Shown here piece by piece: positions 43,326 to 49,328 of a stretch of 64,000 nucleotides of DNA. The notes under the pieces are model-generated. The model was not told the origin of the DNA, ran no database searches, and worked only from the letters and a program-made list of their open reading frames with translations. The stretch covers positions 132,640,385-132,704,384 of the forward strand of contig NC_079487.1 in NCBI RefSeq assembly GCF_020520425.1. Direction: 5' to 3'. The first letter of the stretch is position 1. Every line of letters begins with the position of its first letter. The stretch comes from Spinacia oleracea. Lineage: Eukaryota > Streptophyta > Magnoliopsida > Caryophyllales > Amaranthaceae. The translations under genes were made by a program, and so were the position numbers.

Positions 43326-44881
43326 GAGGAAGGCTCATGTGAGAACACCTCCTTTATGTGAGAACACTCTCCTATGTGAGAATAAATCTTGACCTTTGGA
43401 TCATTTCTAATCTAACAGCCGAAAATCAAGGGATTACTAATGGCATTTTTGTAAATTTGTTCAAGATATACCCAGCCCATATCCTTCACTTTTCACGTTT
43501 ATTTCTTTCTCTCTCTAACTTATGTTTTCTCGATCTCCCTGTTTTCTCTCCTCTCTCTTTTCTTTTGCCGCCATTACTGGACCTTAATCAAGGTCAAATT
43601 CATCTACAACTTGCTTCAGAATTCAATTATATTCTCGAATACATTCATCAAATTGCTTATTCCAAGGTATTTTATCAATTTTCGTTCAATTTTGCAATTC
43701 TGCTTTGTGTATTGTGTTTGATAATTTTTCGATTTCTGACCTAGTTTTGGTTGTCGATTTTGATTTCATTATTATCGAATTGCAATTATCTAATTATTGA
43801 TTACCAAATTGCTTATTCTTGATTTTTTGAATTTGTGACCTGCTTTTTTATTTTCAATTTTGCGAGTTGTTTTTTATTACTGGATTGTTGATTTCATAAT
43901 TGATTTGTTTTGTTTTTGATATTCTGATTTGTTTTCTATTTTGATTTTTGATTTTTGATTTTTGATTTGGATTTTTTTTGTTTTAGATTTTTTATTATCG
44001 AATGGTTCATGACAATTTGTTTTCTTAATTTATGTGTTCAAATTCGTATTTAATCATGTGTGTGTTTCATGCTTTTTGATTTACCGATCAGTACTCTTTC
44101 TCTGTGAGCAATGTCATCGAAAGTTCATCATAGTTCGTCCTCATCATTGACGGAATCAAGTGAGTTTTCTTATTAATGTGTCTGATGTTTAACGTTTTGA
44201 ATAATCGCTTTAAATGTTCTGCATTTTTAACCCTATGTACACATTATACATGTTCTGAATTGTTTGTTTTTTAAGTATTTCTCGATTTGTTGTGAATAAT
44301 GTACAATATGCAAGTTGTAAATTGTTTGTGATTTCTGAATTATTGCTTTACATCTTATGCATAATCGTTTAAAATGTTCCGAGTAATACTCATGTTTTTT
44401 AATAGTTGCTTCTAGTGTTCTGTATAGTTTTCTCTATTTTCCCGTGACATTGTTTTTGCTGTTCTGAATTATTGCTTTACATGTTCTGCATTTTTAACCC
44501 AATGTTCTATGGAAACGTTATATATGTTCTGAATTTTTTTTTGTTATTCTTTTCTAGATTTTGTTGTGAATAATGAACGATATGCAATTTGTTCTAATTC
44601 AAATGTAGTTGCTACTACTGAAGTAATTCCTATATTAAGTCCTGGAGTAACGAGAGAATGGATTTCGTGTTGAAATAACAAGAATTAGTGCTTGTGTTGT
44701 AGAAATGAGCTAGCGAACACACAAACTCAATATGAGCCCATAGTTAATGGCGTACTCCCGACTGCATTTATAAGTCCTACCTATATTACTATCCAGTTCG
44801 AAAAACCTAAATATCAGCTTCGCAGTGGTCCTTCGTTACATTCCAATTGTAAGGTGTATACTTCTGACTTCCATGTCGAGA

Positions 44882-44950
44882 TTGTGTGTGTGTGTTTGTG
44901 TGTGGGCGCGTGTGTGTGTGCGCGTGGGTGTGTGTGTGTGTGTGCGTGCT
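44882..44950. repeat. (GT)n microsatellite, interrupted
   Basis: GT run with GC interruptions. Overlapping Cys/Val-rich and Thr/His-rich frames on both strands are artefacts of it. Confidence 0.95.
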
Positions 44951-45933
44951 ATTGACTCTCCCATATTTGAGCTAGTTTTTGGGTTTGGTTGTATGGGAAG
45001 ACCTATATCAGTTGGTTTAGTATCTAGACAACACCTCCTCCAATCGTCATGCTTGGTTGAGGCCAACAAGGTCCAACAGAAGGTCTACTCATGAGTGCCC
45101 TTGGATGGTAGATTATAGTGGAAGCAACATATGAGATTTGAGTCCCCCGCCAATCTTACTTGGAGAGAAGCGTGTGTTTGATGGGGGTCTTCAATGTACA
45201 TTTTTTATCAGCAAAATACAAAATGGCGTGAAATAAGAGGAAGAAATTACCCTTGCTTATGTTCTAAATCACCCCTTCTTATGTTCTAAATCATCCTCGC
45301 TTATGTTCTAAACTAGGAACATCGCAAAAACCATCTTTTAGATATGTTAAGGTTTGTCCTGAAACCAACATTTTAATATTTCCGGTAGACGATTTGGATA
45401 CCTTAACTATTTTCTGATACTGAAATGCGGGGGAATCCTTTAGGTTTGTATTTTTCTTGCATCTTTGTGGCTTCCTCTGGTCTTACTAAGGAAGTTGTAG
45501 TAACTGTGATTGCTCATGTACCATCATAGGTTCGGCTCATGGAGAAGTCTCTTTTCTTGTTAATATTGCTTCTAAAGTAACTGTTGCTAATCTTGTATCA
45601 TCACGCGCCTTCATGTGCAACAGTAATGTTTTTTTTTTTGCTTCTGTATGTATATACTCCGTAGTATACATTAACCGTGTTCACCAATTAGTGTTAATAC
45701 CATACTACTCTGTATATTCTTTTTTCTTGATGAGTTAGGCTAATATTACTTAGTGGCATCAGATCAAAACCCACACAGTCTTGCCCTTTTCTTATGTTCT
45801 AAACTAGCGGTGCATATGTTCTGAATTAATGTTGCTTATGTTCTAAAGGTTTATATTTGTTTTGGGATTTCATTTCTATTTCTTTACATAAGTAGTTGTC
45901 AACAATGAATAACTTGTTTGAATATTTTGTTAA

Positions 45934-46003
45934 AACCTATTAGCTCAAATGGTAGAGCAATGTGCCATTGCACATGGATGTAGGTTCAAATCCTACATAG
46001 GTT
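45934..46003 (+). other. tRNA-like sequence 1 (probably not a functional tRNA)
   Basis: A 70-nt cloverleaf can be drawn: acceptor AACCTAT/ATAGGTT (7 bp), D arm GCTC/GAGC, anticodon stem ATGTG/CACAT, T arm GTAGG/CCTAC with loop TTCAAAT. The anticodon loop has only six bases (CCATTG), which argues against a working tRNA. A related copy lies in inverse orientation at 46567-46636. Confidence 0.5.
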
Positions 46004-46092
46004 GTTGAGCAAACACCACTTATCTCCGATGTATTTATAGGGATAAGTCCGATGAGAGATTTAACCCCTTTCGCTATGACATATTCATCCAG

Positions 46093-46106
46093 CCCCCCCC
46101 CCCCCC
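46093..46106. repeat. Homopolymer run of 14 C
   Basis: Uninterrupted C run, unusual in this AT-rich context. Confidence 0.95.
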
Positions 46107-46566
46107 AGCCAGTCAGTCAATAAAAACCAGTCATATTTATTTGTTTTTTCCACAGAAGGTTTGCTTAATTTATATTATGAGATGGGGCACATGTGACCAA
46201 AATTAAATAACAGATGCTCAAATGCACCTGTTAAATATCATCGTCCTCATCATCAAAATCATGAAATCCGATATTGTGTTTTGCGTGCATAGGCATTGGA
46301 GATCCTGTCTGCTGAAACCTCGGGGTTCTGCTGCATGAATTAAACCAGGCCCACAAGATGAACTCTAAAATGATAACTTAAGTTTCACGCCTCCTTCCGT
46401 TCAAGTGTAAGATTTCATGTTCTAAAGATCAAGGCTAGTGTTCTAAAAATGTATACATATGTTCTTAAATAAATAGAACATACTAAAAATTAAGCAGAAG
46501 TGATTCATAAGTAAAGAATCATCAAATATGAAAATTAATTAATATCATAAACAGAATACAAAGAGT

Positions 46567-46636
46567 TGCCTATGTAAGATTCGAACCTACATCATTGTGC
46601 AATTGCACAAAGCTCTACCGATTGAGCTAATGGGAA
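46567..46636 (-). other. tRNA-like sequence 2, inverted partner
   Basis: The minus strand reads TTAGCTCAATCGGTAGAGC (box A) and GTAGGTTCGAATCTTAC (box B), again 70 nt. The anticodon arm TTGTG-CAATTG-CACAA has the same six-base loop. The acceptor stem has decayed (TTCCCAT opposite ATAGGCA). Confidence 0.5.
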
Positions 46637-47439
46637 ATGTCTCAAAACAACAAGCATTGAAAACCACTACTTACAACAACACCACAGACACAAAACTGCT
46701 AGTAGCAGCTAAACATAGCAAAATAGCTGCCCAACAAAAACTACCAAAATAGTTCAAATATTGAATAAATATGCAAAAGCACATAGCAAATGTTCTAAAA
46801 ACCCATAGAAAATATTCTTAAAATCCATAGCATATGTTCTAAAACGCCTATTTTAAGGCAATGTATCCTTCTCTAGTAAAGACCTCAAACCCTAGTGAAG
46901 GCATCATAAAGTCACGAAGATAGTTAATTATTGAGATGTGAACTCAAGTCATTGTTGTAAAGGAATGCAAAAAAGAATATTTCCAGAGGTGTTTGGAAAT
47001 ATTACCAGAAGTTTGAGTATGATCAAGTACCAAAAATCGTGTTTTGGAACATTGAGGACTTTAAATGTGGTCCACCCACAACCAAGGGCACTTTCTTTAA
47101 CAGGTTGTTGACAATCAATGGTTTCTCCAGGTGCTTGTTTGCCTTCTGATAACTTTAGAACATCATGTTATATAACTCGGAACATCAAGTTATATAATTT
47201 AGAACATGAAGTTATATAATTTAGAACATCAAGTTATTGTTGACAATAGGCTTATTGTTCCTTAATGGCATCTCTCACCTTTCTTTGGATTGTTACCAAA
47301 GTACATTATTCCTATATGTTCTAGTCAGTTAAACTTCATGTTCTAAGCAGTTAAGCTATATGTTCTAAGTTCTAACATAATGAGAAATAGTAATTTCATC
47401 AAATTCAGAACATGTGCACTTATAATTAGAACATATGCA

Positions 47440-48510
47440 ATTATGATGTTCTACACAATAAGCTATGATGTTCTACACAGTGAGGTATCATGTTCTACAT
47501 TCTTAACCCTCATGTTCTATAGTATTGAGAGTATAAAATATTACTCTAAATTGTTCATGAGAGTATAAAATAGTATAATGCTAAGCTACTTCAAAAAAAT
47601 ATAATTTTTCAGCAAATGGTAATAGATGCTCAAAGTTAAACTAAGAAAACAAATAAACAATATGATGTCAGGCTTCCATCAACGTGAGTGATGGGAGAGA
47701 AAAACATATGTGCCAGGAATTCAACTTCTGCCTCGATTCAACAAAGACAACAAAACTACACTTTCTAAGTGCTAAAGAAATGGTAAAGACGACAAGAAAT
47801 GAACAAACCAATTCTATGACTGACTACCTAGTTCTAGTATTGAAACTTTATCCAAATGTACACTCTTCCATTAATTCATGAGCACAAAATCTCGTAGTCA
47901 GTCTGAAATGTGAATGCAGTGCAGTTTCATCTAAAATGTGAATGCGTTGACAAACCAAACGTGATCAAAACAAGCAACAAATCATATTTAATCTACAACC
48001 AGCATTCTACAAATACGATTTTGATTGACTTCCAAATTATATATTTTATATAATAAATACCAACATTTTCCATACAAAACGCAATTAAACATCATAAATT
48101 CTAGTATTAAGTGAAAATCAAATCAAAACAAACTCCCGCTTTGGTGAAAACTCTTTGGAGGGCGAAACTTATGGTATATATTGTCCAATCATAAACCGAA
48201 TAATGAGATTAAAAAACTAATCACAAATACACGATGGAAAGAGTGCACTATGTATCAATAACCAACGACAAAAATATTGATGACAAATACACAGATGGAA
48301 AGATATAAGACTAAAATGATCTAGATTCGTTCTAAACCTTAGTTAATATAAGATCATATATATTCTGTTTCTGAAATAATTAGAAATTTGATCATAATTC
48401 ACCACAAAAGCAATAAACTGGGAAAATCCAGTGTAGTTGTTCTACACAGTGAGCTATGATGTTCTACATTCTGAACTTTCATGTTCTAAAGTATTGAGAG
48501 TATAAAATTC
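47440..48510. repeat. Duplicated array of TGTTCT-containing units
   Basis: About 47448-47545 holds four units of 22-26 bp, each starting (G/C)ATGTTCTA(C/T). The last three, plus the TATTGAGAGTATAAAAT flank, recur at about 48435-48510 as a direct copy roughly 970 bp away. Confidence 0.7.
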
Positions 48511-49280
48511 GAAACATTCACGATTGTATTAAACATCAAATATAAGGAACATAATAAATCTTAAAAGCGCAATAAACATTCAAAACTTTGCAGACCAAAT
48601 AATCACAAAAATAAATTCCGGAAAATTTCGAAAAAATAAAAAATTAATCGAAAATTAATAAATAAATTTCGCTAAAATTCAAGCACCGAATTCTTACTCT
48701 TGTGTATCTTCTGGATTTTTTTGATGGTTTTTCATGTTATTTTTATTTTTTTTGCTGAAAATCAAAGGTTAACGAAAGGTAACTTCGATTAATGTATAAA
48801 AACAACGAAAGAAGTTCGAAATTAGGTTACAAATATGCTTACCTTCGTCGTTCGTATTGTTTTTCTTTTCCATTCATCTTCAATTGAATAAATTAGGTTA
48901 AAATTAGGAAAAATTGTAGAAGGAGAGAAGAAATGTAGAACAATTGAACTCAAATTTACCTTAAATCAACAATTGAAGCTGCAACGAAGGAGCGCTTGGC
49001 TGTTTTGTAGCTGTGATGGTGGTTTCCTTCAGAGGAGAGAGAAAACTGCGGGGAGAACAGAGAGTAGTCACAAAATCGCGTGAGAGGGAGAGAGTGAATA
49101 GGGAGGGTTTAGAGAGAGAAAGTTACGTGGGTTTAATGAAAGAGTGATTGTGTTTAACTGGAAGTTGGATGGTTTTTCTCATATAATCATAGCCATTAGA
49201 TTGAATCTAATCCTGCGGATTAGATTCATTCTCATATATAGTGCATACTCACATAAGGATGTATTTTCACATGATCCCTC

Positions 49281-49282
<2 letters not shown>

Positions 49283-49328
<46 letters not shown>
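49283..49328. repeat. (TA)n microsatellite
   Basis: TA run at the right border of the Mutator-like element, matching the TA-rich left border near 43290-43325. Confidence 0.95.

Follow-up and report, generated by a model that had tools for sequence, protein, structure and literature searches.

Why should a transposable element carry one short word dozens of times along its interior? The question is raised by a ~6 kb element in a 64,000-nucleotide stretch of Spinacia oleracea DNA (NCBI RefSeq assembly GCF_020520425.1, contig NC_079487.1, positions 132,640,385 to 132,704,384 of the forward strand; hereafter, the window), in which an earlier sequence-only note, the original prediction, had seen an array of TGTTCT motifs. 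Judged by its sequence and that of its relatives, the element looks like a non-coding, non-autonomous member of a spinach family of Mutator-like elements (MULEs) that bear terminal inverted repeats (TIRs) and are of the FAR1 type (Jittery-like, a label based on domain order, not on a tree). The word is enriched, phased, nearly confined to non-coding DNA in one long copy, and conserved above its surroundings. Arguing from anatomy, we hold with moderate confidence that the arrays are protein-binding sites, and that a protein of the coding relatives, likeliest from an antisense second gene, counters silencing in the manner of VANC, known from Arabidopsis VANDAL elements.

Enrichment and phasing of the word

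Counted exactly, positions 44200-48900 hold 29 TGTTCT and 6 AGAACA, i.e., 35 hexamers in both orientations, the figure that the original prediction had estimated for 44.2-48.9 kb. The whole element (43326-49285) holds 39 (29 TGTTCT and 10 AGAACA), the plus orientation being the commoner. The predicted excess over chance is borne out by 1000 dinucleotide shuffles, which gave a mean of 5.4 (sd 2.3, maximum 14) for the whole element and a mean of 4.1 (maximum 12) for the interior.

The unit of the array is ATGTTCT[A/G]A, and it recurs at a regular step. Allowing at most one mismatch, same-strand pairs of ATGTTCTA occur in the element 17 times at 21-22 bp (13 at 22 and 4 at 21) and 8 times at 44 bp, with no pair at 21/22 bp in the rest of the window. 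A rule for runs (two mismatches allowed, steps of 20-23, at least three units) finds 11, two of which are opposite-strand re-reads of another run's DNA, leaving nine distinct runs of 3-4 units each; the same rule finds none in the 58 kb of window flanks and none in 20 first-order Markov sequences. The spacing of 21-22 bp is about two helical turns. The arrays are as follows.

44459..44531, plus strand: array 1, 4 units, spacing 22,21,22
45259..45310, plus strand: array 2, 3 units, spacing 22,22
45794..45845, plus strand: array 3, 3 units, spacing 22,22
46417..46466, plus strand: array 4, 3 units, spacing 21,21
46790..46841, plus strand: array 5, 3 units with the middle one degenerate, spacing 22,22
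47156..47229, minus strand: array 6, 4 units, one degenerate, spacing 22,22,22
47316..47367, plus strand: array 7, 3 units, spacing 22,22
47406..47434, minus strand: unit pair at 21 bp
47446..47519, plus strand: array 8, 4 units, spacing 22,22,22
48437..48488, plus strand: array 9, 3 units, spacing 22,22

Array 9 sits in a second copy of 47469-47597 (129 aligned bp, 77%), the stretch that holds most of array 8.

Arrays in the relatives and their placement

The spinach genome (894 Mb in six large contigs) was searched with the 5' end of the element, giving at least 42 matches with 40 of 191 candidates scored. The relatives discussed here (L031 and following) are 20 loci taken as best matches to that end, not at random, with the window's own locus left out. 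The original prediction had staked its reading on other family copies carrying arrays too, and pairs at 21/22 bp are present in all 20 loci, counted over the whole fetched stretch, flanks included. In seven representative elements, the number of runs is 11-22 per element, compared with an average of at most 0.45 in Markov sequences; four of the seven are cut at the fetched end or at a bound that we set, and the run counts include opposite-strand re-reads.

Four relatives (L031, L032, L033, and L042, the last without its outermost bases) are 97-99% identical to the window element over its whole length. Others are longer, with partly different interiors: L034-L037 span ~7.8 kb, and L039 and L041, which are 99.9% identical to each other, ~8.3 kb. 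FAR1-MULE-SWIM transposase sequence is found in eight of the 20 loci, with both exons open in three (L047, L048, and L050), while the remaining 12 have at most a 4-residue transposase tag. In the coding copies scanned with Pfam (L047 and L048), FAR1 is matched at E 5e-17, MULE at E 3e-21, and SWIM at E 6e-6. The coding copies share the 5' end of the window element; in two long ones, L048 and L049, there are open frames on the antisense strand as well, referred to below as the second gene.

Where the words lie relative to genes is best seen in the long copy L048+L051, which holds 108 words, 86 of them array members. Taking exon bounds by our own reading, none of the 86 array members falls in the 4,875 bp set as exons. 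The exons are not depleted of the word, with nine single words against a Markov expectation of 5.0; rather, the non-coding DNA is filled with it (99 words in 7,633 bp against 8.6 expected). Even the transposase GT-AG intron, of ~215 bp, has eight words, and some arrays are as much as 12 kb away from the 5' end. Most loci counted have one prevailing orientation, the two being near equal in L034-L037; in L048, the same plus orientation spans both a plus-strand and a minus-strand gene.

The arrays extend beyond these loci. Across the genome, three phased words have 6,614 matches, and their reversed control has none; matches overlap within long arrays, so that the arrays are fewer, and few of the places were read. 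From 8855 in L039, a second element type begins with three terminal GTGAGAACAC-like words followed directly by 33 words, 29 of whose 32 steps are 21 bp. At 108 places in the genome, GAGAACAC has two phased words behind it within 30 bp (reversed control, 0). With this second type, the array is seen to extend beyond a single family. This recalls the VANC6 target words described in AT9TSD1, a transposable element unrelated to VANDAL (text of PMC5735166).

Conservation of the word between copies

Between copies, the word changes less than the DNA around it by a factor of two to four, and by a factor of about four between diverged copies. Among close copies, the bases that differ are 3/936 in the word, 30/3550 within 16 bp of it, 252/19251 farther away, and 51/3612 in permuted words. 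When the window is compared with L039/L041, the corresponding figures are 6/288, 88/1028, 481/4765, and 66/790, with n doubled because L039 and L041 are nearly identical. Along the same lines, TGTTCT is intact in 888 of 1045 cases versus 1764 of 3142 for its 29 permutations, and ranks first of the 30. This count is drawn from 54 ordered pairs of eight sequences, taken both ways and not independent, so that a Fisher value from it is not a true probability; it leaves out matches that are shorter than 200 bp, more than 96% identical, or not in order; five of the 29 permutations contain CpG. Single-pair tests run without the CpG words (six tests on five pairs) point in the same direction, with p from 5e-5 to 0.022. 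In the comparison of the window with L041, indels are absent from 406 array bp, and 26 occur in 2679 other bp.

Adjacent spacers are 0.44-0.53 alike versus 0.34-0.37 for random ones, and the units therefore arose by tandem duplication; the words are 0.84-0.91 alike, a value inflated by choosing the units by the word. From the sequences compared, this fits purifying selection on a protein-binding word whose spacing is kept, and does not fit slippage alone. Of the proposal that the hexamer is a binding word spread from the ends of the element, the first half is supported, in that the array behaves like binding sites in the conservation comparisons; the second half fares differently, as described below.

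Ends and classification of the element

The class of the element was read from its termini and its relatives. Its parts are as follows.

43326-49285: whole element, ~6 kb, with inverted ends
43326..43400, plus strand: 5' TIR, three tandem ATGTGAGAAYA at 18-19 bp spacing, (TA)n flank
43401..44672, plus strand: 5' region common to transposase-coding copies, 79-82% by blastn
49209..49283, minus strand: 3' TIR, AGAACA absent, (TA)n flank

The inverted ends align over 133 bp at 79%, (TA)n counted in, and read G[A/G]GGA[A/G]GG, with 49283 the final base ahead of (TA)n on the 3' side. Since (TA)n adjoins 20 of the 21 5' ends and nine of the 10 3' ends examined, a target-site duplication of 8-11 bp is indistinguishable from the repeat. 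The window element retains the first 1.35 kb of the coding-copy layout, and the 3' part of the 5' region is, in our reading of its sequence, probably a decayed piece of the first coding exon of the transposase. That frame is not kept; the only open reading frame of at least 110 codons in the element has 133. Within the same region, 43669-44318 repeats directly as 43891-44592 (offset ~220-275 bp, 61% over 717 aligned bp).

We place the element with FAR1-type MULEs because its relatives encode a FAR1-type transposase, and the Mutator-like assignment of the original prediction agrees with this. In searches of the literature on spinach Mutator-like elements and MULEs, and on FAR1/Ulp1, no earlier report of this spinach family was found. 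Spm/CACTA elements have CACTA termini, a Tnp2-type transposase, and subterminal TnpA sites. The spinach element shares with them a short repeated word; it differs in its G[A/G]GGA[A/G]GG ends, in the MULE transposase of its relatives, in words occupying the interior and an intron, and in a 3' TIR without the core.

The terminal repeats had been predicted to contain the same core as the interior, which is true of the 5' TIR, with two AGAACA, and not of the 3' TIR, with none. A spread of the word from the ends finds no support in this asymmetry or in the form of the repeats, i.e., GTGAGAACAC at 18-19 bp in the 5' TIR against the array unit ATGTTCT[A/G]A. A link between terminus and array may still exist, as the ends of the second element type directly adjoin an array.

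Candidate functions of the arrays

In the reading that we favour, a trans-acting protein would bind the arrays, and the two-turn spacing would let its copies sit next to one another on the same face of the helix, cooperatively. Less surely, the coding relatives would make this protein, most likely from the antisense second gene, and it would shield the element's non-coding DNA from silencing, as VANC does for VANDAL MULEs. Non-coding copies such as the window element would then persist by keeping the sites. Anti-silencing is preferred to the idea of a transposase word because the closest precedent is the VANC-target arrays of VANDAL MULEs. Weak matches of second-gene pieces to PMD (E 0.008) and Ulp1 (C48; E 0.019) also speak for the second gene as candidate.

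Several observations weigh against this reading. Both the PMD and the Ulp1 match of the second gene, which was scanned in pieces, are below Pfam curated cut-offs, and DUF1985 and DUF287 were not among its Pfam matches. A genome-wide search for DUF1985, in which 150 of 893 candidates were scored, listed 149 matches, none of them at the L048 or L049 loci. We claim no autonomous copy, because the 3' ends of L048 and L049 were not reached within 15 and 13 kb, respectively. If whole open frames are taken as exons in L048+L051, nine words fall inside them (1657, 1679, five in 2717-2800 in the GT-AG intron, 11367, and 11389). In the single-pair tests of conservation, TGTTCT ranks first in four of six, one of them trivial as the sole word with enough sites, and third in two. 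For the lack of indels in the arrays between the window and L041, about four events would have been expected. Lastly, the transposase could itself bind the arrays and is the main rival as binder.

That rival takes the arrays as accessory sites of the FAR1-type transposase, aiding synapsis or self-regulation like the TnpA sites of Spm/CACTA. The transposase has a FAR1 DNA-binding domain, the 5' TIR contains the AGAACA core twice, and the second element type has three terminal AGAACA cores with an array at once behind them (in L039, and at the 108 GAGAACAC places). Against it, the core is missing from the 3' TIR, the TIR spacing is 18-19 bp and not 21-22, and interior and intronic arrays as far as 12 kb from the 5' end give transposase sites no obvious use. 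We consider this unlikely, though it survives better than the remaining alternatives.

Alternatively, a host DNA-binding protein, i.e., an activator, insulator, or nucleosome-positioning factor, may use the arrays, which the elements would carry as promoters or enhancers. It would fit this role that arrays lie in the non-coding surroundings of transcription units and that two or more element types carry them. However, no run of three units exists in the window outside the element, and we know of no host factor for this word, although no motif library was searched; both points count against a host protein, which we regard as improbable.

Two further explanations have very little probability in our view. 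A word acting in RNA, through splicing or an RNA-binding protein, would account for the single orientation that prevails in most loci counted, but not for the plus orientation running through genes of both strands in L048 or for the near-equal orientations of L034-L037. Neutral minisatellite growth by slippage, with no function, agrees with the slight likeness of adjacent spacers and with the duplication shared by arrays 8 and 9, but is hard to square with spacers near background beside words so alike (raised as that value is by the choice of units), with words that change less than their neighbourhood, and with array members absent from the exons as we bound them. Neutral slippage, an RNA-level function, and spread of the TIR word are all disfavoured.

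Comparison with known systems

The original prediction was unaware of any plant MULE laid out in this way. In fact, one is described in Arabidopsis: VANC21 binds YAGTATTAY, a word that VANDAL21 carries as tandem arrays within introns and elsewhere in its non-coding DNA (text of PMC5735166). VANDAL21 and VANDAL6 with their VANC proteins, as far as the texts of PMC5735166 and PMC10398659 describe them, share with the spinach family membership of the Mutator superfamily and tandem arrays of short words in intron, intergenic, and terminal non-coding DNA; in both, arrays vary among related elements and an extra gene lies beside the transposase gene. One feature of the VANDAL/VANC system, tandem short-motif arrays in MULE non-coding DNA, is found here. 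The spinach family differs in its TIRs, seen at both ends of the window element, its FAR1-type transposase, and its word (ATGTTCT[A/G]A vs YAGTATTAY or AGTTGTMC), and its arrays are spaced at 21-22 bp; the term 'period' is absent from the main text of the 2017 VANC paper and 'spacing' from that of the 2023 paper, figures and supplements not included. VANC domains are DUF1985 and DUF287 (text of PMC5735166), and the spinach second-gene pieces have no match to either. Because VANC domains were not found, we do not class the spinach element as a VANDAL/VANC system; to judge by anatomy, its arrays would work like a VANC target.

Two other groups are close in protein content. With Jittery and other FAR1-type MULEs (group 36 in the text of PMC6446971), the spinach family shares an N-terminal FAR1 domain, a MULE core, a SWIM finger, and, in the window element, TIRs; one open reading frame is tabled there for the plant sub-group, to which the spinach family adds the antisense second gene and the motif arrays. 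With KI-MULE and others (PMC2528002) and MuDR groups (PMC6446971), it shares a reverse-oriented second gene with Ulp1-like and PMD-like pieces. In the text of PMC2528002, KI-MULEs are described as non-TIR, whereas the window element has TIRs; the PMD/Ulp1 matches of the spinach family are below Pfam cut-offs. Searches of PDB gave no useful relatives.

Other features of the family

Two convergent tRNA-like sequences lie inside the window element.

45934..46004, plus strand: tRNA-like sequence 1, Rfam RF00005, 54.1 bits
46566..46636, minus strand: tRNA-like sequence 2, RF00005, 39.6 bits

Where a normal anticodon arm would stand, both are predicted to form a 6-bp stem with a 4-nt loop; 11 of 200 shuffles do as well as or better than the second. 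The stems differ (ATGTGC..GCACAT vs TTGTGC..GCACAA) with pairing kept. By pattern search, the pair is present in eight of the 20 loci (L031-L033, L039, L041, L042, L045, and L046), with two pairs in L032 and one base pair broken in the second copy of L045; L034-L037 have a single copy.

At two places (L032 6455-6488, and L033 484-503, beside the element of L046), copies stand head-to-tail with another relative, with only a short (TA)n between them, as if new insertions pick (TA)n beside old copies. The flank at 1-383 of L048 is 99% identical, reversed, to the stretch of L047 with the second-gene frame, suggesting an insertion of the L048 element into another member of its family.

Meaning for plant transposable elements

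VANC-type anti-silencing is, in the texts of the VANC literature cited here, an Arabidopsis/Brassicaceae story. More tentatively than for the reading of the arrays themselves, we suggest on anatomical grounds that spinach may hold, outside VANDALs, another anti-silencing system of plant transposable elements that is specific to sequence. In it, the PMD/Ulp1-like product of an antisense gene would recognise helically phased arrays of ATGTTCT[A/G]A, carried by two or more element types whose ends are related yet distinct. A 2017 paper speculates that a PMD captured by MULEs serves anti-silencing (text of PMC5418596), and the spinach family, if so read, would be a ready test of the published idea that MULE-borne PMD proteins counter silencing. 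Finding the same placement with another word, another transposase type, and two-turn steps would point to repeated origins of such systems, and one protein could serve several transposon lineages. If this holds, the arrays would also offer a phased DNA address usable for targeted epigenome work.

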